From: Macrocystis pyrifera
Lineage: Eukaryota > Sar > Phaeophyceae > Laminariales > Laminariaceae
NCBI GenBank assembly: GCA_031763025.1
Contig: JASSKH010000015.1
Coordinates: 558,001-622,000 of the forward strand
Direction of reading: 5' to 3'
DNA: 64,000 bases
The position numbers and the translations under genes are program-made. The notes beneath the pieces are model-generated. The model ran no database searches. It saw only the letters and a list, made by a program, of their open reading frames with translations, and was not told where the DNA came from. The number at the start of each line of letters is the position of its first letter. Position 1 is the stretch's first letter. Below are positions 7,495 through 63,444 of this stretch, one piece after another.

Positions 7495-8049
<555 letters not shown>

Positions 8050-25496: not shown

Positions 25497-28400
25497 CCCC
25501 GGGACTGCTAGCCTCAATGCGGGACTATGAACCTCTTCAGGTTCCCCACCAGATCGTCGCAGCTGGAAAGCACATCCTGTACGGGGTAGCTGCAGGCACC
25601 GTCAACGGCACCATTACCGATGATGGTGGGAACAACCAGGATTTCTCCTTTCGTGCAATCATCGTCCCTGGGCTGGGAACGAACCTGTTTTCCGTCTCCA
25701 TGGCCATGGTGGAGGGGATGGCTGCACTGTTCTACCCGGAGAAACCGAGGTTCGAAAAGGACGACCTCGTTGTGCCGATGAAGACTCTAGGCGTCGACGC
25801 AACGACCGGACAAATCATGTGCTCCATCGCTGTCGCGATCGAAAACCGTGCTGGTACCTCCGTGAAGCCTAGTGGTGCTGCCTTAAAGGTGGTTTCTGCT
25901 GACCTGTGGCACCGTCGCATGGGGCATGCCAACCGAAACAGCATGGAAGTTCTTCGGAAGATGCCGCACAGCGGTGTTGAGTACAACGGTGACCTGACGC
26001 CGTGCGACGTCTGCCCATTCGGCAAGAGTGAGCAGCAACCCCACCCGAAACAAGCGTCGTATGACGTCCAGCGGCCGTTTGAACATGTCTCTGTTGGCAC
26101 CATGGGACCGATCAACCCTCCGGCACTGGGCGGCTACACCTACGTCACCAAGTTTGTTGATCAGCTGACGAAGTGGAAGGAGATTTACCTCATCAAGAGC
26201 AAGACACACACCATCGACTCCCTCGTGCTGTTCAACAAGGCCGTCGTGATTCCGTCCGGAGAGCGTTTAGTCCGCCTGAGAGGGGACAAAGGTACAGAGT
26301 TTACGAGTGAGGAGTTCCGCCAGTACTGTCTAAACATCGGCGTCAAGTTGGAGTTTGCTTCTACCAATACCCCTCAGCAGATCGGCGCAAACGAGCGGGC
26401 AGGTCGAACGCTTGCTGGTATCGTGCGCTGTTTGCTTGCTGATTCGGGTCTCCCGAGTTTTCTCTGGGAGGAGTTGATGCTGACTGCAGTCTACCTGAGC
26501 AACCGGGTCCCACATGCGGCGTTGAGCAACGGTACGCCCTACAAGGCACTCTACGGCAACGATGCTTACCTCGGGAACATTCGAGTTATCGGGGCTAGGT
26601 CGTTTGTACACGTAGAGACCCACACCAAGAAATTGGAGCCGCGTGCTTGGGAAGGACGCCTGGTTGGATATAGCACAGACAGCAAGTCTTGCCGGGTCTA
26701 CAATCCAGCGACGAAACGTGTCAGAGAGAGTCGAAATGTTGTCTTCATTGAGACGCCCTCTGCACTGCCTCGCGTGAAGGTCGGTGGTTTCGACAACAGC
26801 AAGCTCACGTACGACGAAAGTGACGACTTGGTAAGGGATGTGCGTGAATACACGTCTAATCAAGATATCGGTTCGCCTTCTCCTAACCTGGACGCTGCAG
26901 AGCCGTTAGTGACCGACTTTTTGGAACAAATCCGTGATGTCACCGATCGCGATATTGGCGTTAGCCCTGTTGCTCCTACCCCGCCTGTTTCGCCTGGGGG
27001 AGTGAGCCCTTCCGCTTCGCCATCGGGATTTACGCCGTCTGGTGCTACGCCTGGTGGTTCTGCGCTTGGAGGTTCTTCGCGTGGTGGTTCTTCGCGTGGT
27101 GGTTCTTCACGTGGTGGTTCTGCGTCGCGCGGAGGTCGCGCCATTACACCGGCCGTGACCAGATCTGCCTCAAGCCAACCTAACGCCAGAACACTTAGCG
27201 AACTGAGACGGCTCGGCTTTGCGTACATCACGAAGGGGAAGTGCCAGGACGTAGCTCACAAGAACGTCATGTCTAGATTCGTGGAGTACGCGTATGCTGT
27301 ACAGACCATGCAGTCGGGAGTCCCCAAGTCATATGCTGAAGCCATGAAGCTTCCAGACGCTAAGTTTTGGGGAGCTGCCGCGGACAAAGAAATGGCCAGT
27401 CTGAACGAACTAGGAGTGTACAAGCTGGTACCGCCATCATCTGTTTCTCCGGGACAGAATGTCATCAACTCCAGGTGGGTTCTGAAGCGTAAAGCTGATA
27501 ACTCATACAAAGCGCGGGTTGTGGCTCAAGGCTGGAACCAGGTTCCGGGCCTGGACTGCGGCATTACGTTTGCTCCGGTTTGCCGTCTGCAAAGCATCCG
27601 ATTGGTGCTAGCAATTGCAGCGGAGCTGGATCTGGAGGTATTTCAGCTGGACGTGAAAACTGCTTTTCTGTATGCCGACATTCAAGAGGAAGTGTTTGTA
27701 GCTCAGCCACCTGGCTACCAGACCAAGGACAAGGATGGAGGCCCTCTGGTCATGAGGCTGGAGAAAAGCCTCTATGAGCTAGCTCAGAGCCCCGAGAACT
27801 GGTTCCATACCATTGATCCCGTCCTCAAAGTCATCGGTTTCATCCCGCTGAAGTCCGACACTTGTGTCTACATATACCAGCATGGGGGTGTCACCGTCAT
27901 CCTCACCTTGTACGTGGACGATCTACTCGTGATTGGTGGCAACATCGAAGTAATCGAGAGGATCAAGGCACAGCTCATGGACAAGTTCAAGATGACTGGC
28001 ATGGGAGATGTGTCGCGTGTACTTGGGCTGCAGGTCACCCGCAACCGTGCCGAAAGGACGCTTACAATCGACCAGGAGGACTACACCAAGTCCGCGCTGG
28101 AGCGATTCGGTTTCGCCAACTGCAAGCCAACACTGACTCCCGGATACGGACCTGAACTCTCCACAAAGCAGCCGGAGGAGACCCTACTGAACGCCGACGA
28201 GAAGCAGAGGTACCAAGCGATCGCAGGCACGGTCATGTACCTGGCTTCTGTACTCAGGTATGACATAATGTACAGCTCGGGTCAGATTTCTCGTGCCATG
28301 TCAAATCCGTCGAAAGTGCACATGGTGGCGGCCAAGCACATTTTGCGGTACCTGGCAGGGTCCACCGACTTCAAAATTGTGTACAAGAAGGGAGGCTTTA

Positions 28401-28867
28401 AGCTCACGGCCTTCTCGGACTCAAACTGGGCTAATAACCCGGACAACGGCAAGTCGACGTCGTGTTACGTCATGATGTTGGCCAGGGCTCCAATCAGTTT
28501 CAAATCTGGTCTTCAAAGCCTAACAGCCATGTCCACAATGGAAGCAGAGCTGGTCGCATCGGCACTCGCGATGAAGGAAGCCGTGCTCTGCATGAACATG
28601 CTGACGGAGCTAGGGTTTGGGGAGCAGTTCGTTCAAGTGCCGCTTCACTGCGACAACACTGCAACTCTGCATGCGCTTGGAAACCGTTCATATAGTTCTC
28701 GAACCAAGCACATTGCACTCCGTTACTTCTACATTCGCGAGCTGGTATCCGAGGGGAAGATTTCGACTCACTACATCTCCACAAAGGACAACCCCGCCGA
28801 TATCGGGACCAAGCATTTTGCTAAGCCGCGTTTCCAACAGCTACTGGACACCATCAGCAGCTTCTGA
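24881..28867 (+). CDS. pol: Copia Pol polyprotein (PR-IN-RT-RH)
   Basis: One long open frame, in -1 relation to gag, so Gag-Pol would need a -1 shift in the 24881-25496 overlap. Protease: LLVDSGASFNFV near 25450. Integrase zinc finger: LWHRRMGHANRNS with CDVCPFGK. In the integrase core the first Asp position reads HVSVGTMGPI where the family has Asp two residues before Met. The second Asp (RGDKGTEF) and Glu (QQIGANERAGRTL) are present. Reverse transcriptase: RWVLKRKADNSYKARVVAQG, QLDVKTAFLYA and the catalytic LYVDDLLVIGG (about 27910-27942). RNase H: AFSDSNWANN, MSTMEAELVA, HCDNTATLHAL and DNPADIGTKHF near the stop. The upstream end is open without a natural Met. An RGGSS 15-bp repeat (27050-27130) lies between IN and RT. 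Confidence 0.95.
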   Translation: MEGQGQEGRRPLSKVVQLSQDYQPQRQRVQGSARDPVADCTPGDAAVSGARQFRSCRERTSGRFSTTTVGCRWFRSCRERSPRRSSSTTVGGCWFRSCRERTRGSASSADQNGFGYSFTAMGVPLPAAATLSHGAPTAESGAESGELASAQAASQPTYRLPDGVFRALMASTPDLSGEGGLRTNGTYIELLVDSGASFNFVDPELTPGLLASMRDYEPLQVPHQIVAAGKHILYGVAAGTVNGTITDDGGNNQDFSFRAIIVPGLGTNLFSVSMAMVEGMAALFYPEKPRFEKDDLVVPMKTLGVDATTGQIMCSIAVAIENRAGTSVKPSGAALKVVSADLWHRRMGHANRNSMEVLRKMPHSGVEYNGDLTPCDVCPFGKSEQQPHPKQASYDVQRPFEHVSVGTMGPINPPALGGYTYVTKFVDQLTKWKEIYLIKSKTHTIDSLVLFNKAVVIPSGERLVRLRGDKGTEFTSEEFRQYCLNIGVKLEFASTNTPQQIGANERAGRTLAGIVRCLLADSGLPSFLWEELMLTAVYLSNRVPHAALSNGTPYKALYGNDAYLGNIRVIGARSFVHVETHTKKLEPRAWEGRLVGYSTDSKSCRVYNPATKRVRESRNVVFIETPSALPRVKVGGFDNSKLTYDESDDLVRDVREYTSNQDIGSPSPNLDAAEPLVTDFLEQIRDVTDRDIGVSPVAPTPPVSPGGVSPSASPSGFTPSGATPGGSALGGSSRGGSSRGGSSRGGSASRGGRAITPAVTRSASSQPNARTLSELRRLGFAYITKGKCQDVAHKNVMSRFVEYAYAVQTMQSGVPKSYAEAMKLPDAKFWGAAADKEMASLNELGVYKLVPPSSVSPGQNVINSRWVLKRKADNSYKARVVAQGWNQVPGLDCGITFAPVCRLQSIRLVLAIAAELDLEVFQLDVKTAFLYADIQEEVFVAQPPGYQTKDKDGGPLVMRLEKSLYELAQSPENWFHTIDPVLKVIGFIPLKSDTCVYIYQHGGVTVILTLYVDDLLVIGGNIEVIERIKAQLMDKFKMTGMGDVSRVLGLQVTRNRAERTLTIDQEDYTKSALERFGFANCKPTLTPGYGPELSTKQPEETLLNADEKQRYQAIAGTVMYLASVLRYDIMYSSGQISRAMSNPSKVHMVAAKHILRYLAGSTDFKIVYKKGGFKLTAFSDSNWANNPDNGKSTSCYVMMLARAPISFKSGLQSLTAMSTMEAELVASALAMKEAVLCMNMLTELGFGEQFVQVPLHCDNTATLHALGNRSYSSRTKHIALRYFYIRELVSEGKISTHYISTKDNPADIGTKHFAKPRFQQLLDTISSF
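25037..25225 (+). repeat. Three 63-bp tandem units in the gag/pol overlap
   Basis: TTTCGCTCATGTCGGGAGCG starts at 25037, 25100 and 25163. Because 63 is a multiple of three, both overlapping frames carry a 21-residue repeat (FAHVGSA in gag, FRSCRER in pol). Confidence 0.9.

Positions 28868-41334: not shown

Positions 41335-41382
<48 letters not shown>
41335..41382. repeat. Poly-G tract, 48 bases
   Basis: An uninterrupted G run. The ~75 bp to its right (TACTCATTTGTTGCTTGCCT through GACGGAGCACCGT) is repeated after the G run at 45126-45148. Length in the assembly is likely unreliable. Confidence 0.9.
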
Positions 41383-45125: not shown

Positions 45126-45148
45126 GGGGGGGGGGGGGGGGGGGGGGG
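45126..45148. repeat. Poly-G tract, 23 bases, plus shared ~75-bp flank
   Basis: It is followed by GTACTCATTTGTTTGCTTGC through GACGGAGCACCGT, nearly identical to 41383-41456, then an 11-base G run (45220-45230). It lies in the 5' untranslated region of the LINE on the minus strand. Confidence 0.9.
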
Positions 45149-45350
45149 CGTACTCATTTGTTTGCTTGCCTTAGTCATTTGACCATTGACCACGGATCCC
45201 TTTCGAGACGGAGCACCGTGGGGGGGGGGGTGCATGAGCATTACGTAGTACACCGCGTGCTAGTCCTCCGGCCTGATGACGCTGAAGGCACGAGGATCCT
45301 TGGGTCGCGCTCCGTGAAGTGGTGTAGAGGGACGGGAGGAGTGTAATCTA

Positions 45351-46308
45351 GATTGGATCCGGGTCGTCGAGGAAACGGACGGTGTAGGAGTCTGCGGCGG
45401 GGGTGTCGGTCGAGGCGCGGAGGGAAAGTTTGCCGAACAACCAGAGACCATCGCGGGCCCTATACCAGAGGTGTGCCCCGGCGGGGAGGGGTGAAGAGCT
45501 GAAGCGGTGAAGCCAGAGGGTGCATGGGACGAGGCTGTACCCGGGAGCGAGGAAGATATCACCCCGGGACCGCGATAGTTCGCGGTGAGCGGCCCCGATG
45601 CGCATCTGGCAGTATAAACGGTTGGTCTGGCGGTGCTGTGAAGGGGTGCCACAACATAGCGGAGGATGTGGAGTCGGTGGAGCTGTAGGTCTCGCTCGTA
45701 TTCCCACGAAGGGCAAAGGAGTCCGGCCCAGTGTGTTTCGTACAACACGGTGAGAACGCCTCCCCGGCCACAAACGAGTTGGTGTCCCGAGATCTGGTGG
45801 ACCTCGAAGCATTCGGGCGGTGGAGAGATGTCGTCGAAGGTGACGTGGAAGGGCGGGGACTTGGTGGAGAAGGAGCTGAGAACGTACTTGGTCAGGTCGG
45901 CCGGAAGTTGTTTGGGAAGATCGTCGATGTCGTCGGGGTTTCGGCAGGGCTTGCAGCGGAGAACGGAGACGCGGTGTTTGGAGTCACGTCCCGCCATGTC
46001 CGAGGGAAGATCGAAATACAGGAGTTTGCCGTGAAGGGGCCGGACATCCGGGCGGCTGAGGCTGGTGCTAGGCCCACGGCAAGGATGTTAAACGGGCCGA
46101 TCCAGTTGAAGGAGAGTCTTGAGAACGGTGGCGTCGGTGCCTTTCTTGGCGCGCCATGGCGAATGGTGACAGCGGTGTTGTAGATCCATGCCCAGCTGTC
46201 GGCAGAGAACGGAGGGGAAAGGCGGGGGGCGTCCATGATGGGGGCGTTGCGGCGTTCGAGGCGCGAGACGTAGACAGCGTGGAGCTCCCGGACGGCGCGG
46301 TAGGCGCG
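45351..46308 (-). pseudogene. Gypsy-1 integrase C-terminus with chromodomain-like and Tudor-like parts
   Basis: After the core, IGPFNILAVGLAPASAARMS is the GPF/Y-type module. At about 45653-45808, CFEVHQISGHQLV, LTVLYETHWAGLLCPSWEYE and DLQLHRLHILRYV look like a diverged chromodomain (Phe-Glu-Val start, Trp, Trp-Glu). In a neighbouring frame (about 45351-45470), LWYRARDGLWLFGKLSLRAS and YTVRFLDDPDPI resemble a Tudor/SH3-like module at the C-terminus. Such modules target integration to chromatin in chromoviruses (family knowledge). Confidence 0.65.
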
Positions 46309-47527
46309 TTACTGGCGAGCAGTGGCGAGGTCGATGTAGGCGAGCTGATCTCGATTGAGGCTTTGATGTCCGCCAATGCTAAGGAAGTCGAATACGGTGA
46401 GGGGGAGACGAGGCAGTCGGCCCATGTGTACTTTGTTGGGGGCCAGCCCGGTGTCGGCACTAACGGAGTTGTTGTAGGCGCTTTCGACGGGGGAAAAATT
46501 CAAGTCCCAATCGTTTTGTAGTTCGTTTCCGACCATGGCGAGCATCAAGACCATGGTGTGGTTGACGCGTACGATGCCGCCGTTGGTGCAGGGGTGGTAG
46601 GAACTCGTGGAGAGTTTGTTGATGCCGAGGCGCTCATAGAGGGTGCGGGAGAATTTGGCGCAAAATTGAAGACCGTTGTCGGAAAGGAGAGTAACGGAGC
46701 ATTCCCAGAGAGGGATGTAGCGATCGACGAGGATGTCGGCCGTGCCGGATGCGGTGAACCCGGCCTCAGTGGTGGCGTACATCGCGGCGGCTGAAACGGT
46801 CGGTGATAAGGAGGATGTAGGCGTTTCACCGAGGCGTGATGGGCAAGGGCCCGAAATAGTCGACTCAGACGAGAGTACCGGGGCCATTGGGTAGCGGTAG
46901 GGAGAGGGTTGGCCAACGAATTGTTTGGCACGAAGACTTACACGCCTGGCACTTGAGGCAGCGGCGGAGCCACCAGCGGGTGGAGATGTCCATGCCAATC
47001 CACCAGTAGAAGCGCATAAGCTTGCTGAGTGTCTGAGCAACACCCAGGTGGCAAGAGGTGGTAGAGTGACATGTGTGTAAGACCCACGGTCGCATCAACA
47101 TTGGAACGTAAATGCGAGGTTGCGTTGTGAGGGGCTGCGGTGTAGTCGTACGAGCTTGGCCCAGGGAAGCCGTGTGTGGTCGGTGAACGAGATGGACTGT
47201 GTCGTCGTCGGTTGTATGGAGCTGACCTTCCGCGGCGAGCACAAGGACCTCCGAGAGAAGAGGGTGACGGGTCGAAGGGATGTAGTCCAAGAGGTCGCCC
47301 GGTGGTGGTGAATGTGAGCCCAAGCAAAGATCTCGTATGGTGGCTGACCAAAGAGGTTCGGTGCGTTGTTCGCGCGCCCAGTCGGTGTAGGTGTAACGCT
47401 CAACGCAGGAACCAGGGTGTGGGTCGTCAGCAGACCGGACAACGGGTTCAGGTAATGGGGGTGGTTGAGTAGGAGAGGGTGGGGGAGAAGGCCCTGGGGT
47501 GGCGAACTGTTGTGGAGGCAGTAACAC
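46309..47527 (-). pseudogene. Gypsy-1 integrase
   Basis: The HHCC zinc finger is in the first piece: HTCHSTTSCHLGVAQTLSKL, WWIGMDISTRWW and CLKCQACK (about 46960-47080). In the core, the first Asp (VDYFGPLPITPR) is followed by a stop, then NAYILLITDRFSRR. The second Asp is in LLSDNGLQF. The expected Glu in the TNGxxERVN motif reads GGIVRVNHTM (Glu to Val). DWDLNFSPVESAYNNSVSAD and LAPNKVHMGRLPRLPL follow. The enzyme would be inactive. Confidence 0.88.
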
Positions 47528-48240: not shown

Positions 48241-48570
48241 GCAGAGGCCCCAATAGGGTAGTGGATACGAACCAAGTCCGAATTTTCAGTACGTGGTCCG
48301 TGGCGGCGGAAGTCGCCAAAGTCGTTGTCGGTGCAGGGTAGTGGTGGGATGGTGTCGCAGGGAGCGATTGAGGATGGGAAGAGCTGACCCAAACTGATGC
48401 CCGGGGTGAAGGGGTCAATCGGAGTAAAACTACAGGCTTGGATAAGGTAGATACCGATGGTGTCGGGAGTGGTGAGGCGGTTGGGTCCGGTGCGGTCGAG
48501 ATCGGTCGCTGGTTGTAGGAGTCGAGAGAGGAAGTCGGCATTGCCTCATTATCAGAGCCTTTGCGGTACT

Positions 48571-49126
48571 CTAGGGTGTAGGAGTAGGCGGAGAGGATCT
48601 CCAGCCAGCGTTGGACGCGAGCGTTGTGTTCGCCGACTTTAGTGATACTCTCGACTGCCTTGTGGTCAGAGTAGATGTGGAACTTGGTGGACCAGAGGTG
48701 GCCGCGGAGGTGTTTGATGGCCCAAACGATGCTACCGGCTTCGAGGTCAAGGGGGGTTCAGGATCGTTCGTTGTCGAGATTGGTGCGGCTGATAAAGACA
48801 ATGGGACGGACGGAACCGCCCGGTTGTTCTTGTTCGAGAGTCGCGCCAAAACCGTCGATGCTGGCGTCGCAGTAGGGGCGGAAAGGGCGGGAGGTGTCGA
48901 CGACGGCATCCCAGTCCGGGTATACCAAGATCGGAGGAGTAGCGAGTTCGTGGGGGATCTGGCGGACGACAGTTTCCATTTCCGAGGTGAAAACGAATTT
49001 AACCCCTTGTTTGAGCAGGGCGTTAATGGGTCCTAGCCGAGCGGAGAGGTTCTTCAGGAATTTACGGTAGTATCCAATGCATCCGACAAGTGAGCGCACT
49101 TGCTTGGTGTTCGTAGGCATGGGCAT
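48571..49126 (-). pseudogene. Gypsy-1 RT thumb and RNase H
   Basis: The piece at 48758-49126 has VRSLVGCIGYYRKFLKNLSA and RPYCDASIDGFGATLEQEQP, with the RNase H first Asp in CDAS. A frame change near 48760 leads to HLWSTKFHIYSDHKAVESIT, with the TDHK-like motif as SDHK, in the 48600-48720 region. The order and motifs are those of Ty3/gypsy. Confidence 0.8.
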
Positions 49127-49259
49127 CTGGGTTAGGCGGCAACCTTGTCAGCGTTTGGGCTAACGCCAGAGGAGGAAATGGCGTGTCCCAAAAAGTCGGC
49201 GCTGGTAGTGCCAAGCTTGGCTTTGGAAGGGGAGAGTTTGAGGTTGTGTTTTCGAAGGC

Positions 49260-50498
49260 GTTCGAAAAGGGAGCGGATATTTTCTCGCGTGGGCCGTGGG
49301 GTCGAGGTCGAAAACTATGGCGTCGCGAGGTAGGCCGCTACGCGGTCAAGGGCTTTGATTACCTCGTTGATGATCTTGACGAACCAGCCAGACGCGGCCA
49401 TGCTGCCTTGAGGCATGACGAGCCACTCGAAGAGTCGAGTGGGCGTGCAGAAGGCAGTCAAGGGTATGGTGTCCTTGTTGATGGTAATTTGGTGGAACGA
49501 AGACACGAGATCGAACTTGGAGAATATGCGGCCTTTTCCGAAAGAGTCGAGGACCTCCTCAGCGCGAGGGATGGGCAGTTGGCCCAGGGAGCTGATGGCG
49601 TTAAGCTTTTTGTAGCTCACGCTTATCCGAACGTTGCCGTCTTTCTTGGGAATGGCAGCCATAGGGCTGGCGTATGGGGAGGTGGAGTCCTGGATTAGGC
49701 CTGCAGCCAGGTTTCGGTCAAGGACAGCATCGACCTGCTCGGCGAGAATAGGGTTGATGCGGTAAGGATGGGAAAATACGGGGGAGCTATCCGGGGGATG
49801 GAAATTTTGAACGGAAGTAGGGAGCACGAGCCAACGTCGGTTTTGGACGTGGAGAAAACATCGGGAAACTCACGAAGAACTTCCCCCAGGGCTGTGATGA
49901 CCGAAGGGGACCAACCGGAACCGCGGAGGTCAAAGACGACGTCGCAAAGGTGTAGCGGGAGTCGGTCCCAGAGGCGGAGGAAGCTTGTCCGTTGGTCGGC
50001 AGTCAGGCGTTCCAGGATGTTGGAGCAAGGGGTCTTGGGGGGATCAACAGGAGGAGTACCGTCGTCGTGTACGGGGATGTTGTCGTGCAGGGCGTGGACG
50101 TCGGCAACAGCTGGGGCTATAGATGGCGTCGTGGAGAGACTTTGCAGTACTGAAACAGGAATTTGTATGAGGGGAGAAGAGGAAGTCCCCAGAAGGTCGC
50201 CTGGTTCAAGGTCAGTGAATCCCGAGAGCGGGATAGTTTTGGTAGACGTTGGCAACGAATATTTCAGTTTCGGAGCAAAGACCGTCACGGGGAAGCATGT
50301 CAACAAGGTAATGGACAGTGGGCGCCGGAATGCCGGAGGGACGCACCAAATTAACCGGGACGAGTGACGGCGTAGACGAAAGTAACATTGCGTGAACGCC
50401 GGCGAACTCGAGGTGTACGGTGTCGGGGGAAGGGCGGTTGTCGTGGACGAAAGTGGAGAGACCACCCTTCTGCAGGGTGGTGAGGGAGAGCTCGCCAA
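49260..50498 (-). pseudogene. Gypsy-1 reverse transcriptase
   Basis: The N-terminal piece (49695-50498) has LEPGDLLG, NILERLTADQRTSFLRLW and EFPDVFSTSKTDVGSC. The RT fingers and palm follow at 49315-49827: HPYRINPILAEQV, LIQDSTSPYASPMAAIPKKD, SVSYKKLNAISSLGQLPIPR, FSKFDLVSSFHQI and FEWLVMPQGS. A frameshift then falls inside the catalytic YLDD: the frame reads AYLAT and the shifted frame resumes DAIVFDLDPTAHARK (about 49270-49310). The RT is inactive as written. Confidence 0.88.
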
Positions 50499-51160
50499 AG
50501 AGCGGTCGCGAGGGGAGTCGGGGCAGGATGGTGTTCGTGAGTTATTCGAACCGCATCCAGCTGTCGCGTCCCAGGAGAACGGTGTGTTGCATAGTCCAAG
50601 GTGGCACGATGCACGCCCATACGGCGAGTTCGGCGGAAGAGGTGTTGTCGTGCAAGAACTGGATGCTGAGTCGAACGGAAAATCGAAGTGAGGAGGGGAG
50701 TGGATTTACCGAAACCACCCCAGGAACGAGGGGAAGCGTGTCGCTCACAGATATCCGACGCGGCGTTGCTGTGGAGGTCCCAAGCTTCTGCGGAGATGAA
50801 GGTTTGGCGGGCGTCGGTGTCCAGGAGAGCTACTAGGCCGTAGCGGTTGGATGCGGAGGGTCCACTGTGTACTTTGATCCTGGTCATGAAAGAGGCGTCG
50901 TCGATGGTAGTTATATCGCTCGAGAGGCCCGGTCCATGTTCGGCAATGAGGGGGGGAAGTGCAGGGGGAAGGGCAGCTCCGGACAAGATGGCAGAGACCA
51001 ATGTGTGCGGAGGAGTTGCTTCAGGGAGGGAGGGGCAGTAGGTGGTCCAGTGTGGAGGGCGCGGTAGGAGCTGGAGCCGTTGCACTGATCTCGTGAATCC
51101 CATTCTCGGAGGGTGAGACGCGAGAGCCGCCGAGAGGGGGCGGAGGTGGAGGGGAGGCAA
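50351..51160 (-). CDS. Gypsy-1 protease region
   Basis: The open frame contains ITTIDDASFMTRIKVHSG and the retropepsin-like core GLVALLDTDARQTFI (about 50803-50830). The family active site is Asp-Thr-Gly; here Gly is Asp (gypsy-2 has DTGS), so activity is doubtful. The flap and tail (LAVWACIVPP, VLLGRDSWMRF) lie in an overlapping frame at 50542-50748. The frame begins in the tail of the NADAR region. Confidence 0.75.
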   Translation of the reverse strand: MPPLHLRPLSAALASHPPRMGFTRSVQRLQLLPRPPHWTTYCPSLPEATPPHTLVSAILSGAALPPALPPLIAEHGPGLSSDITTIDDASFMTRIKVHSGPSASNRYGLVALLDTDARQTFISAEAWDLHSNAASDICERHASPRSWGGFGKSTPLLTSIFRSTQHPVLARQHLFRRTRRMGVHRATLDYATHRSPGTRQLDAVRITHEHHPAPTPLATALWRALPHHPAEGWSLHFRPRQPPFPRHRTPRVRRRSRNVTFVYAVTRPG

Positions 51161-51607
51161 GCTGGTGGCGGATCTTCATGAGGATGTCGCCTAACAGGTT
51201 GAGTCCTGGTCAATGTGGAGGTTGTAAGGCTCGCATATCGTCAGACCTGAAGCCGATGCTCCAGACGAGATCGTGAGGGCTGGCTTCGGCGAGGAACTTG
51301 TCGCCGGTGTCTACGAGTTGTTGGAGCAAGGGGGGAGCCGAGAACTTGGCGAGGTTACCCTTGAAAACGATGTCGTACCGATGCTGTAGCCAACGCTCTT
51401 GGTTAAAATTGGAGACGGAGCGGCCGAGGTGTTTTTGTTGTGCGGGATTCGGAGAGGACACGATCTTCCGGCGAGCTGCTGTGTCGCCGAAAGTTTGGCT
51501 TTCTCCGGCACCATGTAATGTTCCGCGCAGTTGTATTGCTCGTTGTTCACGGTGGACGTCGAAGGGTACCACATAGAGAAGACCGGGGATTGGTCCAAAA
51601 AAAAAAA
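51150..51607 (-). pseudogene. NADAR (YbiA/DUF1768-like) domain in gypsy-1, broken
   Basis: Frame one (to about 51490) reads FSMWYPSTSTVNNEQYNCAE then HYMVPEKAK, including the catalytic-type Glu in CAEHYM and the Lys-Ala that follows. After a frameshift the domain continues (51210-51560) with LGRSVSNFNQERW, KGNLAKFS, LVDTGDKFLAEASPHDLVWS and IGF. A TGA then replaces the family Trp (PPH-stop-PGLNLLG), and the same frame runs on as PGLNLLGDILMKIRHQL, the NADAR C-terminal LGxxLMxxR helix. Essentially the whole ~150-residue domain is visible. NADAR enzymes hydrolyse ADP-ribose linkages (family knowledge). Location between Gag and protease matches gypsy-2. Confidence 0.88.
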
Positions 51608-52816: not shown

Positions 52817-53428
52817 TTATTTGGGACTGCCGATAGAATTGTGTCCCCTCGAGTTGGAACGCTTGGAATAAGAGTTCGAGTTCCGTTGTACATTGCGTTC
52901 GGACTGTCCCCGACGGTATGAGAGCATACGTTGTTGCCACTGTTGAAAAGCGTAACCTCCGTCGTTGAGGCGGCCGAGCCGGGGATTGAGAACACCTGAT
53001 TTGTTTATGAAGGGGCTTTGGCACTTTTTGACGTTGTGGGCCTGTCCGCCGCAGTTGAGGCATACCCCACGCCATGTGCGAAGGGTGATCGCTCTGGCAA
53101 TAGCGCTAAGGAGAGGGGTCCAGAGAGGAGGGTCGGTGGTCGAAAACGTGGTGGACACCATGTACACTTCATCTAAGTGTTCGAGAGGCCAGTAGTAGTA
53201 GCCCAGAGTAAAAGGGTCAGTGTCTCGGGACGTAGAGACGTTTATGACATAGGGGGTTTGCGTTGGGTGCCTTGTTGGTTTTGGTTCGAATGATTGCGCG
53301 AGCGCGTCTGCTGAGCAGGAGCCGATGACGGTGGGGACGACGAAAAGGTCGTGTGGCCTCCAAGGGAAGTGAAAGAAAATATTTTTCGCCATTAATGGCG
53401 GGTGTATTATTCGTGGCGTATACTTCAT
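52817..53428 (-). CDS. gag: Gypsy-1 Gag C-terminal region with CCHC knuckle
   Basis: The open frame has TDPPLWTPLLSAIARAITLR, then the zinc knuckle CLNCGGQAHNVKKC (CX2CX4HX4C, about 53021-53062). It continues GVLNPRLGRL and YAFQQWQQRMLSYRR, matching gypsy-2 at 60430-60530. The knuckle would bind element RNA. An Asn/Ser-rich tail follows. Confidence 0.85.
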   Translation of the reverse strand: MKYTPRIIHPPLMAKNIFFHFPWRPHDLFVVPTVIGSCSADALAQSFEPKPTRHPTQTPYVINVSTSRDTDPFTLGYYYWPLEHLDEVYMVSTTFSTTDPPLWTPLLSAIARAITLRTWRGVCLNCGGQAHNVKKCQSPFINKSGVLNPRLGRLNDGGYAFQQWQQRMLSYRRGQSERNVQRNSNSYSKRSNSRGHNSIGSPK

Positions 53429-55928
53429 GAGCTTCCCACATGGCCGAGACCGAAGGGAAAGACTCTACCGCAGTCATCAAGTCGACCGGGTACAAAACAG
53501 GAGTCAAGGCTGGAAACTGTCTACTAACACTGGTACGCACTACCTCGAACACCATGGCGTCGCTAGGTTTTAAAATCTTTTCAGAGCCTTGCACCACCGA
53601 CGTCAACTCCCTCAAAGCCCGCAAAATAATTGAACACACCGTGCCTGTTGGTACTCCGAACGCCTGAAGTTTTTCGAATGCATGGCCTTGGTGGCCGTGG
53701 TCGAAGTGTGTGCTCAGCTGACGCAATAGTAAGCAGGAGGCAGATGGTCCAGCATTGTCCTTCTGCCGAAGGTGATCGCGCACCTGTTTGAAAAATAGTT
53801 GATAAGGAGGGACATCCGGAAGTTGGTGCCTGTCTTAATTGCTTTCCGGAAGCACCGGTGAAGCGGGGTGATCCATCCTCGTGACCAACGCAGGGAGTCT
53901 AGGGTACCATTCGGGGAGTCGTCACAGCGTGAGAGAATGTCCGCCAATACAAGTTTGGTGCTTGCTGTGAGTTGTCGAACCCCTACACAGTCGTCGGTTC
54001 CCGCGGGAAAAGGGAGTGGGTCGACGAGCTCCAATTTTTGTGTGTCCAAGTCGATGTACTAGCAGCTGACATCAAAGTCGTGGGTACTAGCTGTAGTGGT
54101 TTGGGGCGTAGTTGGAATTGCGGCGGGGGGGGGGGGGGGGGGTGGTGAGAGTGGGAGCGACTTGGTGCTGAGGGGGTAACGATGCAATGGGGATCGAGCT
54201 ATTTGGGAAAGGGGTTGGAGCCTGCACCGGTGCAATGGAGATTGCGCGCCGTTGGAAGCTGAGGGGCCTGGGCTGCAACGGAGGTTGCATTGGTGGGTAG
54301 GGGGGTGGGAGTCACTGGACACTGTGGAGGTAGTGGTGCGATATTAGAGGGGGGATTGCGTTGTTTTGAGGGGGGGGCGGGAGCCGGCAGCGGCGGAATA
54401 GAGATTGCGCGGCCGGGCGCCGCGGGATACGGAGAGGTCAGGGCCGCAACGGGGGCTGTGTTGAGAGGCAGTGAGGCGGGAGTCACTGGATACTGAGGTG
54501 GTAGCGGTGTGATGGAAGCTGCATTGGGAGGCAGTGAGGAGGGAGCCACTGAATGCTGAGGTGGTAGCGGTGTAATGAGGGGTGCGATATTAGAGGGGGG
54601 TGAAGTGCCGCCCTGTAGCGACGCAGTGGGCTGATACTGACCAGGCGGTGGGTCAATAGAGATTGCGGTGCCGGTTTGGGGGGAAAGCGGGTACTGAGGG
54701 GATGATGTCCAAACGGGTGGTTGCCGCAAAAGAAACAGATAGCGGGGCAATATCAGAATCAGTCACTCGCCTGTTATCCTCCGAGATGTAGTCCTCGTCG
54801 GTTGTCAAGGAGAAATAGTCGTCACTGTGCTTCCTTGGGCGTTGTTCAGGCCGGGGGGGGGTTCCGCTGTTGCCGGACCGGGGGTGGGGGTGGTAGAGCT
54901 GGACGATGGCGTAAGGCGGGTCGGGATGTTGGAGTTGCTGGTGTCGTTGTTGTTGTTATTGCTGTCACGGTCATGGTCGTCGTTTGGGCGCCGTCGGTTG
55001 ACCGGCAAGCGGCCGTCCGAACAGGCCGCCATCCGCTGATGGCGTTGACCTCGAGAGGCATTGTATTCGGCCACGGAGGGCCATGTGTGGTGATTCGAGG
55101 AGTGAAAAGTCCTCAAAGTTGCGACCAACCTGAGTAGCTTGATCCGTACATTGGAGTTGGTCACGTTTGGGAGGGCCTCGAGGGCTTGCCGGAGGGTCGT
55201 GGTGCTCGAGTGATATAAGCCCTTTATGGTCGATGCAGCCGACGAGATGGCTGCCCGGCTGTCCTCGGGGACATTGTGTGAGGATATAAGCGGTCGGATC
55301 GACGTTTCTAGGAAAACAATGTCCGTAAACTCCAGCACAAAGCTCAGACGTGCTGGAGTTGGTGGGAGTGACGCAGGGGTGGGGGGGGTCGAGGTGGTGG
55401 GGGCGGGGGCTGAAGCGGCAGTAGAGGCAGTCGAGACTGGGAGAGCAGCGGCCGTAATCGTGCGGGTGGGAGGGGGGGGGAGGCCTTGAGAGGCAAGGGT
55501 CAGGGCTTGCTGAGCCCGGAGAGATGCCACGACGAGTTCTGTTCCCGCTATGGCCGCACTTTCCCGGGTGTTTTGTTCCTTTAACAACCTTGAGAGTCGC
55601 GCCTCACGTCTCGAGCGTTTCTTGGCGTGTTTGGTGAGCCACTTCTGAATCTCTCGTACGGTCAGCTCATCCCCCGAGGTTGTTAGCGCAGCGTCAGTCG
55701 GGACATTCCGGTGGTCGTGGGTGTGGGGCGAGACGTTCGGGTGGTCGTGGGTGTCGGGCGGGACGTCCGGGTAGTTGTGGGTGTCGAGAGTGTTGTCCGT
55801 AGGAGCTGGGGTGTTGGCGGTCGATGATACAGAGTCGTCATTGTCGGGCGAGTGGTGGTCGGCTTCCTCTTCGTTGGGGAGTCGGACCCGTAGTCCACGC
55901 CGTTATCCTCATCCTTGACGTTTACCAT
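53217..55928 (-). pseudogene. Gypsy-1 Gag N-terminal and capsid-like region
   Basis: The probable start is the ATG at 55928 in context AAACCATGG (MVNVKDEDNGVDYGSDS). Later pieces are a basic helical stretch (LTVREIQKWLTKHAKKRSRR), a 260-codon piece ending at 54805, and a Pro-rich piece (54199-54750, PPQYPVTPASLP-like repeats). The gag core at 53714-54049 and 53217-53783 contains KLQAFGVPTGTV and TPAINGEKYF. The core aligns with gypsy-2 gag (HNFGVANGTP, then TPAVNGEKYF). An 18-base G run (54125-54142) interrupts it. Frames change several times. Confidence 0.7.
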
Positions 55929-56992: not shown

Positions 56993-57041
<49 letters not shown>

Positions 57042-57965: not shown

Positions 57966-58620
57966 AAAAATATACTCTCATTGCGAAGTGAAAAGCAAAG
58001 AGAGCAATATTTTGCGAAGGCGTCAGATGGACTATCGGTGCAAAATATGCTCTCTAAAACGTCACGCTCGTGACTACATTGGTGAGGGAGGCTGGAGCAC
58101 TGCGTTCGGTGTTTCTCTGCGACGCGGTACTTTCGGGATCCAGGTAATTTTCTAGCTCATCAGGGCTTGACGAGAACCAATGAACTGCGTGCTCTGTCTA
58201 AGGGAAATCTGACAAAAGTTCAACATCATCAAACTGTGCGTTATTCAACTCATCATTCGTGAACAGAGCGACTAGGTCCGTGGGTAGGAGCGGGTGAGGC
58301 AACTGCAACCTGTCCATCACATACGCAAAATGACTGTGGTGGTTGGAAGGGTCAGACGCCGGGTGTTCGCCAAAAAAATATACAAGGCCTCTTCGCGAGG
58401 ATATTGTATATGAAAATCGCACGAGCTACAAGCATTGGTCGGCTCTATGAGGGTATCAGGCTGGGTGTTATTGGTCTTCAAACGTGATACTTGGAGCGAG
58501 TAAGCAAGCCTTCAACGCAGCGATAGTCGCTGTTGGTGTGGGCATGAGCTTCTTTGCATCAGCAACAGAGATGTGCATTTCGGCGGTTTCTGGTTCGTCA
58601 TCGTATCCTAACTATAATTA
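57966..58620. other. Stretch without a recognised gene
   Basis: A 74-codon minus-strand ORF (58198-58422, acidic C-terminus) could be a host exon but has no recognised feature. Confidence 0.35.
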
Positions 58621-58725
58621 TTACGGGGGTCCATAGTTAACGGGACCAAATTTTGTTAGTAAAAATGGGAAAATATATAGTTTTTTATGTACACCATAGG
58701 TCCTGTTAACTATGGACCCCCGTAA
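58621..58725. mobile_element. Mariner/Stowaway-type MITE, copy 4 (best preserved)
   Basis: This 105-bp element has near-perfect inverted ends TTACGGGGGTCCATAGTTAA and TTAACTATGGACCCCCGTAA, and TA on both sides (58619-58620, 58726-58727). The whole element could fold into a hairpin with an AT-rich loop. It is the reference copy for the family in this window. Confidence 0.85.
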
Positions 58726-59103
58726 TAGCTTCATGAAAAAGGATTATCTGTGGTGAAATCACTACGGAGGGCTCGCCAGACGGATCGACCATTGTAAATG
58801 CACAATCGCGAGGACCAAACTTACTTAGCAGGCGCGCGCTACGGCGGGCGTCTCCACGGGCGGGTGCAACGCGCGCGTTGTGTTACGTTGCGGTGCTACC
58901 CAAGAAGAACGCGAATGAATGCTGATAGACAGAAAAGACAAAGACAGGAAAAAAAAGGAAGAAAGACAAGGTACTCTGAAATACAGTAACTCGAATCATG
59001 CCAAAAAAAAAAAAGGAGGAAAGCTCACGTCGAAAGCGAGGAGAAGGCTCGAAGAACAGGTCGAGGTGATGAGCAGAGATGTAGTCCTTTCGACGCCGGC
59101 AAT
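58726..59103. other. Stretch between the MITE and repeat R copy 2
   Basis: Purine-rich DNA (58925-59050, AAAAGACAAAGACAGGAAAA-like) with no recognised coding sequence. Confidence 0.4.
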
Positions 59104-59716
59104 TGTGATGTGAACAGGGCATGAGTGCCAAGAGATGATATTCCACAGAAGAGGTGTGACACAGGTGTCTGTGCTTGGTTAAACTCAGACCCAGTTCGTA
59201 TTGACGTTCTCTTGTATTCTGGATGTGAGGCTTGCTCGAAGGGGCAAGAGAGACGAGGAAGAGGGAGGGGGGGGGGGTGAAGCAGGTGGTTTTCGAAGCC
59301 AGAAGTATCATCTGGCTTCAACCAGCTACAATCTACTGGCAAGGGTACATGCGTCACCCTCAACTTCACTAGTACAACACCCCGTAAAACCTGACGTATG
59401 GATATGCCATGTGCGTACATCTCCGTCTCCTCGGCTATTTAGATACTAGCCTGCGTATCCTTTTTGCAAATACAAATATCTTATTCCAGACGGTAAACGG
59501 GGTACGTGTACAAAGGAATACTATTAATAGCCTGCGTACCGGTATTACAAATAAAAATGGAATATATACGAGGCGTATTACGCAGCTTGCAAAATTGAGT
59601 ATCAACTATTTGATCGGTCGAACTCACAGCTGACGTATTTCAAAGTTTATAAAAAAAAAAAAAACGAAATATCTTATTCCAGACGGTAAAAGGAGTAAAA
59701 TCCAACTGGAAGAATA
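59104..59716. repeat. Dispersed repeat R, copy 2
   Basis: It matches 39949-40446 for most of its length. It carries an extra ~130-bp insert (about 59545-59670) ending in CTCACAGCTGACGTATTTCA and an A-run. It abuts the truncated 5' end of gypsy-2. Confidence 0.85.
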
Positions 59717-59739
59717 ATACGCACCAACACGGGGGCAAG

Positions 59740-60426
59740 TTGCATAATTTTGGCGTGGCTAACGGGACCCCTTTGTGCGATTTTGGTCGTGCATTGCGAG
59801 GGGTGGTGTCCACAGCAACGGGGACTGAGCGTGTTTTGGCACCGGGAGTGGAGGTGGTTTTGGAGGTAGTTTGGACGGCAGTGAACGAGCAGTACCCCAG
59901 CTTGATGCCGACGCTGTACCCGGGAGTTATTGCTACGGTATCGAGGCCGTTCGGCACTTTGGACGCCATGTGGTTAGCTTTCGAGACTCTTGCGAATAAT
60001 AAGACACCTGCCGTGAACGGCGAAAAATATTTTTCTTTGCCTGCTTCTTCGACGGGTGCGCGGTCATCCGCCCCGTCGGGGCCCCGGCCCGCCAATATTG
60101 GTCGCGGCCAGGGCCGGACGCTTCCCCAGTCGCCTTCTTGGCAGACGGGATCGCGCAATAATCCGCTTGTGATGGATGTCCACAAATCCATCCCTGACTG
60201 CCTCGACCCGTGGCTTGACACCTCTTCCAACTGCTGGCCCCTTGAAGAACACCACTATGCTGAAGTTCACGCCGTTTGCATGTCCATCCAGACCGAGGAC
60301 CCTCCCCTCTGGAGCGGCCTACTTTCATCGTCCGCTCGCGCAGCCGCCCTTAGCGAAAACCGAGGACGCTGTTCAAACTGTCACGAAGACACACACTCTC
60401 TTCGACAGTGTAGACACCCTTTTTAA
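59740..60426 (+). CDS. gag: Gypsy-2 Gag (C-terminal half) with CCHC knuckle
   Basis: The open frame includes LTPTLYPG-like capsid sequence (YPSLMPTLYPGVIATVSRPF), TPAVNGEKYFSLP, DPPLWSGLLSSSARAAALSE and the zinc knuckle CSNCHEDTHSLRQC (60370-60411, CX2CX4HX4C). It ends at TAA 60424-60426 (HPF-stop). Gypsy-1 continues in frame past this point, and gypsy-2 also resumes in the same frame (NLSGILNPDLG), so the TAA is a nonsense mutation or a readthrough stop. The start is uncertain because the element is truncated. Confidence 0.85.
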   Translation: MHNFGVANGTPLCDFGRALRGVVSTATGTERVLAPGVEVVLEVVWTAVNEQYPSLMPTLYPGVIATVSRPFGTLDAMWLAFETLANNKTPAVNGEKYFSLPASSTGARSSAPSGPRPANIGRGQGRTLPQSPSWQTGSRNNPLVMDVHKSIPDCLDPWLDTSSNCWPLEEHHYAEVHAVCMSIQTEDPPLWSGLLSSSARAAALSENRGRCSNCHEDTHSLRQCRHPF

Positions 60427-61855
60427 AACCTTAGTGGTATCTTGAACCCCGACCTCGGAACGCTCGGCGACGACGGCGAGGCGTTCCGTCGTTGGCAAGA
60501 ACGCATGATCAGACACCGCCGCGAGAACAAATCACGACCGAACAATTCAACCAGAAGAAACATAGGCGTCGTCCCGGCCCCTCGCGTGGGCAACATCACG
60601 GCCAGGGTCAGCAACACAGACAAGGCGATGGCTACAACACACACGCGGCACGAGGACACCAGCAGTCTCACTCCGGCCATCATGGTGGTTCGACCGCCCC
60701 TACCTCTTCCGCCCCGGCTCCCGTCTCGGGGGTTCGCTACTGTGCCTCGCATACCTCGGGCGGAAACCCGAATGGACGCCAGCCAGGCACCTTCCGCGCC
60801 GGTAACTGACAGGTCGACGGCGGTTCGGCTTCTTCTGACCGCCCGCCGCCAGCATTGTCAGGAGAAAAAACCTTGATTTCACAAGATGCTCGCGTCCCAG
60901 GCTCGCTCAGTACTCCGCTCCCGCCCCGCGCGTTACTCCGTACTTCGGACCGACGCAGCGACTCAGCTCCACTGCTTTTTCCAGGGAGCCCTCGGGCGCC
61001 TTCCCCGACGTCGGGAGCCCGCGCCTCAAACGCCGCTCCTCTCAACCTGGGCACGAGAGCAGGCGCGATAAACGCTTCTCTCCCAAACCACGCACCGCGC
61101 AACACGACGGGTGTCGCGCCGTCGCGTCGTTGTTTTTCAGCGAGGGTGTCCCCCTCCTTTACCTCCCGGCCATGCGGTGGCGGTCGGTTTGAGGTGCGGG
61201 AAGGCAAACACCGAAACCCCGAGATCTCGGTTGAAGCTCGACTCGGCGTTTCCTCGCAATAACGGTGGCCGCTCCACCCTTTTTCCTATTAAGGAGGAGT
61301 CGACAAGATTAGCTACCTCGTCCCCCTTCCCCACCAGGTCTACAAGACGGAAGCCCTCTCCGGTGGACCCTTTGTTGCCCCCCACCCGAGCACCGTTCTT
61401 GAAGACGTCTACAGGGTCTGCAGGCCCTCTTTCGTCTTCGCGCACGCCACTCCACGTGCGCAGCGCTCCTTCGGCTCCAGTGGAACAAGAAAAACCTGGC
61501 ACTGTCCGTCGAGCCAGTGGTGACTCCACGGCCTCCGGTCAGATCAACCGGACAGCATACCCGTTAAATTCGGAAGAATCGCAGCTCTCGTCAAGCAGAA
61601 CGGGCTCAGAGCCCCCTGCCCCCTTTGGTCCAGGACAGAGATCATCAGGCGCAGCAAGAGAGAACCTTCTGGCGATTTTTTGCCTACGGGCAATGGTGAC
61701 ACAAATCCAGTATACGTGGAACCGGACTCGTCTCGTGCACCAGGGACTCATTGTTCTCAGAGAAGCACACCCCCCCTACACACGCCGCAACTGCGGCCAC
61801 CGACGACTCGGCGCCGTCGGTTTTTGACTCTACTCTCGAGTATACAACGGAGCGG
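60427..61855 (+). other. Gypsy-2 post-knuckle Gag tail and linker
   Basis: The same frame as gag continues to 60876 (NPDLGTLGDDGEAFRRWQER, then basic and Ser-rich). Ser/Pro/Arg-rich open frames at 60855-61262 and 61111-61827 follow in other frames. No domain is recognised. A similar linker precedes NADAR in gypsy-1. Confidence 0.6.
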
Positions 61856-62617
61856 GTGGTACTGTTCTGGCAGCCCCCCTCTTATTTTTCGCAGTGGTCC
61901 CCCTCGTCTTTTGTCGTCGACGATATATCATATTCCTGCGCGGAGCAGTATATGATGGCTGAAAAGGCTCGCCTTTTCCAGGACCACGGCACAGCGGAGC
62001 GGATGATGGCCTCGCCAGACCCACGCGAGTACAAACGCCTCGGTCGAGGCGTGCATAACTTCGACTGCGCTATCTGGGACGGTGTTCGGGAAGACGCCGT
62101 CCTTGCTGGTAATTTTGCCAAATTCTCGCAGAACCCGGTCATGAAGCAGCACCTATTGAGCACTGACACCAAAATTTTGGCTGAAGCCAGCCCTTTTGAT
62201 GCCGTGTGGGGCATCGGTCTGCGGGCAGACGACCCCCAAGCTCACGACCCCTCTCGGTGGCATGGAAAACGTTTGCTCGGTAAAGCTCTTTCCGCCGTTC
62301 GCGACACCCTCCGATCAAGTGAGGCCGGGTTGGCACACCCCGCCTCCTCTCACCAATTCTGCACCCCAACCAGACCTGACAGAATTCATGAGATTACACC
62401 AGCGCCGCCCCGCCCTTTGGCCGTGGCCGGCGCTTGCCCAGGTCCTCCTTTGGGGTTTTCGACCTATTTTTCTGACGCGCCGGCTGATCACAGCCCCGAG
62501 ATTTTGGCTGTCGCACCTAGTGTCGACCCCTCCCTCGCGCTGCCAGAACACGGCCCCTGTCTCGTCGGGGGCACCATTACCCGATCACAGCCCCGAGATT
62601 TTGGCTGTCGCACCTAG
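61751..62617 (+). CDS. NADAR (YbiA/DUF1768-like) domain of gypsy-2, domain intact
   Basis: The frame is open from before 61751 to 62617. The NADAR domain spans about 61856-62320 (155 residues). Visible family features: VVLFWQPPSYFSQWSPSSF (Phe-Ser then hydrophobic core), YSCAEQYMMAEKARLF with the key Glu, GRGVHNFDCAIWD, VLAGNFAKFSQNP, LLSTDTKILAEASPFDAVWG then IGL, and RWHGKRLLGKALSAVRDTLR. NADAR proteins bind or hydrolyse ADP-ribose derivatives, including guanine-linked ADP-ribosylation in some bacteria and eukaryotes (family knowledge). In the element it would be expressed as part of Gag-Pol before the protease. The frame leaves the polyprotein at a 97-bp duplication (62486). No frame break falls inside the domain. 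Confidence 0.92.
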   Translation: MFSEKHTPPTHAATAATDDSAPSVFDSTLEYTTERVVLFWQPPSYFSQWSPSSFVVDDISYSCAEQYMMAEKARLFQDHGTAERMMASPDPREYKRLGRGVHNFDCAIWDGVREDAVLAGNFAKFSQNPVMKQHLLSTDTKILAEASPFDAVWGIGLRADDPQAHDPSRWHGKRLLGKALSAVRDTLRSSEAGLAHPASSHQFCTPTRPDRIHEITPAPPRPLAVAGACPGPPLGFSTYFSDAPADHSPEILAVAPSVDPSLALPEHGPCLVGGTITRSQPRDFGCRT

Positions 62618-62679
62618 TGTCGACCCCTCCCTCGCGCTGCCAGAACACGGCCCCTGCTTCGTCGGGGGCACCATTACCC
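62486..62679 (+). repeat. Perfect-looking 97-bp tandem duplication between NADAR and protease
   Basis: GATCACAGCCCCGAGATTTT starts at 62486 and again at 62583. The copies differ by about one or two bases (CCCCTGTCTCG versus CCCCTGCTTCG). Because 97 is not a multiple of three, it throws NADAR and protease into different frames. Removing one copy would restore one frame, which implies the duplication is recent. Confidence 0.92.
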
Positions 62680-63444
62680 TCGATGACGCCCCTTTTACAA
62701 CGAAAATCGCGATGCACAGCGGAGCTGGCGTTCTTGCACCTTTTGGTTGCGTGGCGCTTCTCGACACTGGCTCCCCGCAGACTTTCATCCGACGAGATGT
62801 TTTGAATCGCATGCACTCGGTTGGTGCAGCATCCCTCGCGTGCGAGCAGAAAGGCGCCCCTCGTTCTTGGGGGGTTTTGGCGAATCGGCCCCTCTGAAGA
62901 CTTCGACGAGTGTGCGCCTGAGCGTCCAATTTTTTCGAGAAAATGAGCCTACTTGCTCCCTCGCAGTTTGGGCCTGCGTGGTCCCCCCCTCAGTGATGCA
63001 GCATGCTGTGCTATTGGGACGTGACAGCTGGATGCGCTTTAATAGCCGCTCCTACCGCTCTCTGCCACCTCGGCCGTCTGATCAACGCGTGTTTGGCGAG
63101 CTGGAGTTAGTTCACCACGCCCCACAGGCATGTCCGTGTACGCCATCGACTCCGCCGCTTCGGGTGGAGGCTTCCATCTACGCTACGAGGGCGCAGCAGG
63201 CGTCACCCTGTCCGACGATCCCCAGCTGCTTGCTGTTAATTTGGTTCGAAGCGATGGCTCCCCGGCCCTCACTGGACACTACTTGGTCGACATGATGCCC
63301 CAGCCCGACCTACCCTCGGTCGAGGAGCACTTCGTCTCCTCCGGACGACAGGCTCTTCCCCTCGTTGGAGTGGCGGCTCTCGAGCCGGGGGATGTCCTCG
63401 GCGTCGCCCACGCCCCACTGCTGAGCGTTCCGCTGGACGTTTAG
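62583..63444 (+). pseudogene. Gypsy-2 protease region (several frames)
   Basis: Frame one has ITLDDAPFTTKIAMHSG and the retropepsin active site CVALLDTGSPQTFIRRDV (Asp-Thr-Gly at 62763-62771). At the GGGGGG run near 62870 the frame changes to GGFGESAPLKTS, LAVWACVVPPSVMQHAVLLG then RDSWMRF. A further change leads to 63130-63444, with HYLVDMMPQP and ALEPGDVLG, as in gypsy-1. This protease keeps its catalytic triplet, unlike gypsy-1. Confidence 0.85.

Follow-up and report, generated by a model that had tools for sequence, protein, structure and literature searches.

Can a retrotransposon hold an ADP-ribose-processing enzyme within its own polyprotein, and does such an enzyme serve the element? 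This question is raised by a stretch of 64,000 nucleotides from the brown alga Macrocystis pyrifera (assembly GCA_031763025.1, contig JASSKH010000015.1, positions 558,001 to 622,000, forward strand), here called the window at its full length, in which a sequence-only reading had proposed that a Ty3/gypsy element carries an intact NADAR domain between Gag and protease. Judged by profile and sequence searches, this element (copy A) does hold a real and complete NADAR domain of the YbiA type at that place. Because PMC12477816 describes the same layout, as the sequence-only reading had suspected of retroelements, the finding is not new in kind; the window copies are further members of a NADAR-Gypsy layout published for Ectocarpus. 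What we add is the invariance of the catalytic site, the joint divergence of NADAR and reverse transcriptase (RT), a basal relative free of NADAR, the bacterial kin of the domain and its possible kinship with host genes.

A complete NADAR domain in a frame-shifted element

The domain lies in a plus-strand open frame of 305 residues (61700-62617, standard code), where it takes up residues 56-205, corresponding to nucleotides 61865-62314 and in agreement with the interval 61856-62320 given earlier. Every motif that had been quoted as part of a complete family signature is present, and the profile search that had been proposed, against Pfam NADAR (PF08719), gave a full-length match at E 1.6e-48, which spans positions 2-163 of the 163 in the profile and scores 165.5 bits where the gathering score is 35.1. 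The same domain matches the NCBIfam model TIGR02464 (142.8 bits, cutoff 73.7). Two solved relatives were found by sequence search, 8bau (E 8.8e-14) and E. coli YbiA, 2b3w (E 1.9e-4), with E values of 2.8e-29 and 2.2e-11 when a profile of 34 sequences was used. We take 8bau to be the Phytophthora NADAR on the basis of a residue match to PMC11543638. The parts of copy A are as follows (protein relatives are given by their P numbers):

59653..60426, plus strand: gag-like open frame; a CX2CX4HX4C zinc knuckle is seen by eye at about 60370-60411
61700..62617, plus strand: open frame with NADAR and its flanking linkers
61865..62314, plus strand: NADAR domain, by matches to PF08719, TIGR02464, 8bau and 2b3w
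62486..62679, plus strand: tandem duplication of 97 bp at 98% identity, lying between NADAR and protease; one site of frame change
62637..63121, plus strand: aspartic protease region (LLDTGSPQTF) in two frames, by tblastn of P0157 and P0141
63561..63998, plus strand: beginning of a Ty3-type RT, truncated by the window end, with the stretch that precedes it; tblastn of P0141, 71% over 146 residues

With a gag-like frame upstream and a DTG protease and RT downstream, the domain occupies the position that had been claimed for it. The gag frame is 47-48% identical in amino acids to the gag of a second element in the window, copy B (E 6e-26 and 8e-15), and the gag part of P0162 aligns to 59887-60666. 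Pfam scans at E 0.001 returned no match for the copy A gag frame or protease region, and a Pfam scan of the partial RT frame returned none. Copy A is seen only up to RT, its 3' end lying beyond the window. The intactness claimed for the domain is borne out: the NADAR reading frame is uninterrupted, whereas the element around it is not intact, with several frame changes (gag in frame 1, NADAR in 2, protease in 3 then 2, then 1, and RT in 3) and the tandem duplication.

A second element and many relatives share the layout

Copy B is an inverted and more decayed element of the same layout, on the minus strand from about 53.7 down to 45.2 kb. Its order is gag, NADAR, protease, RT, RNase H, integrase and a C-terminal part, which includes the Ty3/gypsy order gag-protease-RT-RNase H-integrase, and its RT is of the Ty3 type:

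53009..53699, minus strand: gag region, broken, with a zinc knuckle by eye; protein alignment to copy A gag
51153..51604, minus strand: NADAR, broken by a frame change and with one stop in the aligned block; tblastn and PF08719 (E 3.9e-22)
50218..50947, minus strand: protease region and part of the spacer beyond; tblastn
48548..49797, minus strand: RT and RNase H, broken into frames; RVT_1 (E 9.1e-13) and RT_RNaseH_2 (E 7.2e-11)
46024..47404, minus strand: integrase; zinc domain by Integrase_H2C2 (E 1.5e-12), core by tblastn of P0141 only, at 53-55%
45237..46150, minus strand: C-terminal part, chromodomain-like by eye; tblastn, 50-56% to P0141

The NADAR of copy B is 43% and 53% identical to that of copy A in two tblastn blocks, and its catalytic residues are still visible by eye in the alignment despite the decay. 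The two copies have diverged far too much for one to be a recent copy of the other, so that they probably represent two families. No LTR-like (long terminal repeat) direct repeat pair of at least 40 nt was found around copy B in 43500-58700, and Pfam scans of copy B, of P0126, P0141 and P0154, and of two C-terminal pieces gave no chromodomain match; a PDB search for the chromodomain also gave none.

Two further observations concern the 3' side of copy B. After the chromodomain-like part of P0155 and P0141, corresponding to about 45237-45500 (minus strand) of the window, there is an Agenet/Tudor-like stretch; the Agenet match to the P0155 piece has E 0.065, below the cutoff, and the P0141 piece has no such match. 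Directly 3' of copy B and on the same strand, a LINE-type (long interspersed nuclear element) element with endonuclease and RT by eye occupies 41389-45170, and the Ectocarpus gene model P0162 (gag-NADAR-RT) likewise continues into the end of a LINE-type RT that shares 65-70% identity with 41389-42735. Chance neighbours, a fusion in the gene model or something more could each account for this adjacency.

A protein search with the 305-residue frame returned 1175 proteins, from the best 120 of which relatives were drawn, and a search for long proteins yielded 36, with domains taken from precomputed Pfam matches. RVT_1 and NADAR occur together in 20 of these 36; in every one of these NADAR comes ahead of RT, and 18 have a protease match in between. 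NADAR-bearing clusters include two with 415 and 126 member sequences. Among the best 120, the named eukaryotes near the domain are Ectocarpus sp., E. fasciculatus, Pylaiella and Scytosiphon, all of them brown algae, and P0154, a long NADAR-RT protein, and P0162 are gene models of Ectocarpus sp. CCAP 1310/34. Two long NADAR proteins have no retroelement Pfam domains: P0156 (882 residues) also matches PF03747, the Pfam ADP-ribosylglycohydrolase, and PF10021, which we take to be PARG-type, and P0152 (958 residues, Patella caerulea) shows four NADAR-like repeats by eye.

One explanation for the frame changes on both sides of the copy A domain is that a host or bacterial NADAR gene was inserted by chance into a single decayed element. 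However, copy B has the same order, and the long NADAR-RT proteins and large clusters carry it as well; a one-off insertion, the possibility raised in the sequence-only reading, or an assembly accident is therefore rejected, and we regard its probability as negligible.

When the RT-RNase H region of P0141 served as query, 23 of the best 120 of 177 proteins, P0141 itself included, were at least 57% identical; the next, P0170, was 43% identical and the rest 28-37%. NADAR is present in 13 of the 23 close relatives (in P0161 as a 30-residue piece only); in eight the frame starts too late to include it, P0153, a chimeric gene model, lacks it, and P0165 has 262 residues ahead of the protease and no NADAR. 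A tree of 35 RT rows contained a 27-row clade (98/95) with all 18 NADAR-positive rows, both window copies among them, and P0164 and P0165 fell outside. Within a 15-row clade supported at 100/100, both window RTs, which fill only 19% and 34% of columns, group with P0154 and P0162; the copy A RT is 71-76% identical to P0141, P0157 and P0158 and 63% identical to P0162. The tree left out P0150, an over-long segment, and, for brevity, P0124, P0127, P0132, P0133, P0145 and P0148, and P0125, P0131 and P0135 were never included. The simplest reading is that NADAR was gained once, on the branch of the 27-row clade, with a loss in P0165, which was flagged as a long branch, as the alternative.

Conservation of the domain

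Between distant elements, NADAR is conserved about as well as the protease and well above its own linkers. For 16 long proteins, mean pair identity was 65.6% in NADAR (78 pairs), 65.9% in protease (120), 72.6% in RT (120) and 75.7% in RNase H (120), compared with 46.2% in the linker after NADAR (94) and 44.6% in the stretch before it (18), values that cover only those of the 120 pairs with enough overlap, so that pair sets differ, and that include many near copies. For the distant pair P0141 and P0126, identity was 55% in NADAR, 49% in protease, 61% in RT, 28% in the linker and 23% in the stretch before NADAR. Across 12 elements, among them near copies that favour such a correlation, NADAR identity climbs with RT-RNase H identity (Spearman 0.60; none of 5000 permutations as high), and for the 56 pairs with RT-RNase H identity below 80% the mean identities are 52.9% (NADAR) and 61.3% (RT-RNase H).

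The codon positions at which copies A and B differ bear on whether the domain has been held as a protein. Differences at positions 1, 2 and 3 numbered 71, 49 and 94 in NADAR (149 codons, six counted in two overlapping blocks) and 49, 29 and 100 in RT (163 codons, three counted twice). These counts come from blocks chosen by protein similarity, which lean toward such a bias, and one of the two copies is decayed; the two NADAR blocks gave p 0.004 and 0.17, the second not significant. On these differences NADAR seems to be maintained as a protein, although less tightly than RT.

Active-site residues

Active-site positions are given in the numbering of the Phytophthora enzyme, mapped through an alignment to 8bau. 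In that enzyme, E43, K50 and E125 contact the distal ribose and phosphates; their equivalents in the E. coli C7 NADAR matter for hydrolysis of guanine-ADP-ribose or for rescue from DarT1, and the equivalent of K75 is required for rescue and not for catalysis (PMC11543638). At the eleven positions considered (43, 50, 75, 79, 84, 86, 89, 93, 125, 130 and 133) copy A has E, K, K, R, F, C, W, R, E, D and W. Wherever covered in 27 long Pol proteins, a set that includes near copies, the catalytic positions are invariant: E43 in 18 of 18, K50 in 23 of 23 and E125 in 27 of 27. The same holds for K75, R79 and W89 (24 of 24 each) and for D130 and W133 (27 of 27 each), and the position of Y84 is F in 24 of 24. 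A wider set of 52 element rows, identified by a motif after the domain and including broken copies and many near copies, kept E43 in 21 of 21, K50 in 34 of 36 and E125 in 47 of 50 covered rows; among 58 further rows kept apart as not assignable either way, E43 was kept in 22 of 24. According to PMC11543638, Glu at position 125 marks the YbiA subfamily, Asp the BC4488 subfamily and His the phage NADARs, so that copy A and all 27 long Pol proteins are of YbiA type. Viral-contig relatives also have Glu there (35 of 35 covered), and the position therefore does not set them apart.

It is conceivable that NADAR was retained as a binding or structural module, reading ADP-ribose or targeting the integration complex, rather than as an enzyme. 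Putative C-terminal chromodomains reported for the lineage (PMC12477816) would mean that targeting modules are at home in these elements. However, E43, K50 and E125 never vary in the long Pol proteins that cover them, even if binding could demand some of them, and we consider this explanation quite unlikely.

Origin of the domain

The element NADARs may be kin to NADAR genes of their brown-algal hosts. A quick tree of 94 rows, obtained after dropping 75 of 185 rows with fewer than 132 filled columns and then 16 of 110 as near copies, grouped retrotransposon NADARs with stand-alone brown-algal NADARs (Shimodaira–Hasegawa-like approximate likelihood-ratio test, SH-aLRT, 90), the stand-alone rows being two from Ectocarpus, one each from Pylaiella and Scytosiphon, and one more. 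Trees of 50 and 95 rows likewise united element and brown-algal stand-alone NADARs (97/92 and 99/91) and separated them from the NADARs of bacteria and viral contigs. Rows of the 50-row tree were hand-picked, as were the element, host, stand-alone and viral rows of the 95-row tree. The bacterial rows are best matches rather than an even sample (80 of 293 confirmed stretches kept, representing 79 loci, of which 25 were then dropped as near copies); the viral-contig relatives (8 and 27 loci), whose nature we leave unstated, served as out-rows and were not scanned for RT.

The next group in the 95-row tree is bacterial (joint clade 99/93; bacterial group alone 89/89), with 11 stand-alone proteins and 13 genome rows, namely eight from Myxococcota, four from Planctomycetota and one from Pseudomonadota. 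In this tree the nearest sampled bacterial kin are mostly Myxococcota and Planctomycetota, and such a sister group fits the horizontal transfer of NADAR suggested in PMC12477816. Approximately unbiased (AU) tests rejected no alternative topology in either the 50- or the 95-row set. A single clade of elements alone gave p 0.357 (50 rows) and 0.558 (95 rows, the constrained tree being 1.15 log units better), host rows with the other element group p 0.222 (50 rows), host with bacterial rows p 0.098 (50 rows) and 0.484 (95 rows), and a grouping of elements with the rows of the bacterial sister group that leaves the host outside p 0.295 (95 rows). The trees thus favour kinship between element and host NADARs and the AU tests do not settle it; the element may have captured a host gene, the host may have tamed an element domain, or both may have acquired it from bacteria.

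The stand-alone brown-algal proteins P0049, P0058, P0064 and P0084 are 53-55% identical to the window domain (three aligned) and, unlike the element NADARs, are proteins of 227-252 residues that lack retroelement parts and carry an N-terminal Cys/His motif. In the three aligned proteins the motif reads C-x4-C-x3-C followed by H-x2-C-x3-H, and P0064 is similar without the first Cys. We did not notice the motif in the retrotransposon proteins that were read, although no systematic search for it was made.

What the domain may do

What is observed directly is the domain, its place, its conservation, its retained catalytic residues and its divergence together with RT. On this footing we propose, tentatively and as the likeliest of several readings though one that may well prove wrong, that the Pol-borne NADAR is packaged, freed by the protease and clears ADP-ribose from element RNA or complementary DNA (cDNA). 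A brown-algal Ty3/gypsy lineage would have taken up a bacterial-type YbiA/NADAR at the N-terminus of Pol, most simply once, and would since have kept the domain as a working enzyme. Because NADAR sits in Pol, it should be packaged in the virus-like particle, and the element protease would then release it. The enzyme would hydrolyse ADP-ribose from guanine bases of element RNA or cDNA and thereby reverse a nucleic-acid ADP-ribosylation, whether due to the host or to stress, by which reverse transcription or integration would otherwise be prevented; this role would amount to counter-defence. Guanosine-ADP-ribose is hydrolysed in vitro by four kinds of NADAR from E. coli and phage and by one myxobacterial YbiA (PMC11125620), and RNA-virus polyproteins likewise embed NADAR (PMC9503650); both fit the proposal.

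Several observations weigh against this proposal. YbiA and phage NADARs cleave guanosine-ADP-ribose in vitro and yet gave cells no protection from DarT1 (PMC11125620). The position of D86 is never D in the long Pol proteins (C in copy A), and that of R93 is R in 11 of 24 and C in 13 of 24. Broken fragments show altered catalytic positions, as in the three covered element rows that have lost E125, and the basal relative P0165 has no NADAR. RT shows a stronger codon-position bias than NADAR does, and the near copies among the 12 elements and the 27 Pol proteins, like the choice of codon blocks, lean toward the pattern that we report.

Alternatively, NADAR may process RNA-linked or small products of ADP-ribose or nicotinamide adenine dinucleotide (NAD) during the RNA stage, as in RNA repair or at NAD caps, with no attack by the host involved. 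The authors of PMC12477816 propose, as a guess, that NADAR processes RNA intermediates of these elements, and RNA processing or soluble ADP-ribose derivatives have been proposed for viral NADARs (PMC9503650). However, the substrate in this scheme is only presumed, and the catalytic residues do not separate one substrate from another; we place it on the unlikely side of possible.

The match to TIGR02464, an equivalog-domain model, well above its cutoff, is what would be expected if the domain were a metabolite-repair N-glycosidase for riboflavin intermediates that is simply carried along. That model predates the work on guanine-ADP-ribose, which counts against taking its label at face value, and such an activity offers no obvious gain to a mobile element, whose NADAR is nonetheless conserved about as well as its protease. 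We consider a riboflavin function very unlikely.

If the domain does cleave guanine-ADP-ribose, as we tentatively propose, this would point to ADP-ribosylation of nucleic acids as something that hinders retrotransposons in a eukaryote. A bolder extension, which we think unlikely, is that elements and brown-algal hosts share one NADAR lineage through exchange and are now opposed in a conflict over nucleic-acid ADP-ribosylation. No DarT-type Pfam match was found in the 25 window frames scanned, which are a part of all window frames.

Other features in the window

24237..28864, plus strand: Ty1/copia element with long open gag (419 residues) and pol (1341 residues) frames
7495..8049, minus strand: exon-like frame matching alanyl-tRNA synthetase (PF01411, E 5.7e-14, profile positions 2-65 of 552)
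41335..41382 and 56993..57038: pure G runs of 48 and 46 bases
58619..58727: inverted repeat of 29 bp (97% complementary) whose arms flank 51 bases; it may be a small hairpin element

Comparison with known systems

The closest known system is the Ectocarpus Gypsy lineage of PMC12477816 (2025), comprising Gypsy-12_Ec32 and its kin, in which a YbiA-type NADAR at the Pol N-terminus is reported in all families. The window copies have the same layout and share an RT clade with this lineage through P0154 and P0162; they are other copies from another genome, and Gypsy-12_Ec32 itself is compared by its description only. Among the literature matches listed, with preprints and most subscription journals outside the scope, no other paper on NADAR in retrotransposons was found. 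Taken together with the published layout, our results suggest that NADAR-Gypsy elements are old, much multiplied and kept as carriers of an enzyme, and not a curiosity of one genome.

PMC12477816 also describes NADARs in a retrotransposon of another kind, the Tx1 LINE of Crassostrea gigas; these lie in ORF1 of a non-LTR element and are called divergent there. In the RNA viruses of PMC9503650, NADAR and Macro domains are found in polyproteins, so that, as in the element, an ADP-ribose-processing domain is embedded together with a polymerase, although these are positive-strand RNA viruses of animals and, unlike the element, do not use reverse transcription. The Phytophthora nicotianae NADAR (8bau) and E. 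coli YbiA (2b3w) belong by sequence to the same family as the window domain, and copy A agrees with the Phytophthora enzyme at E43, K50, K75, R79, W89, R93, E125, D130 and W133; both are cellular enzymes that stand outside any retroelement polyprotein. The NADAR antitoxins linked to DarT1 have Asp at the position of E125, where copy A has Glu. Were exchange between host and element to hold true, it would be a eukaryotic parallel to these bacterial DarT-NADAR pairs.
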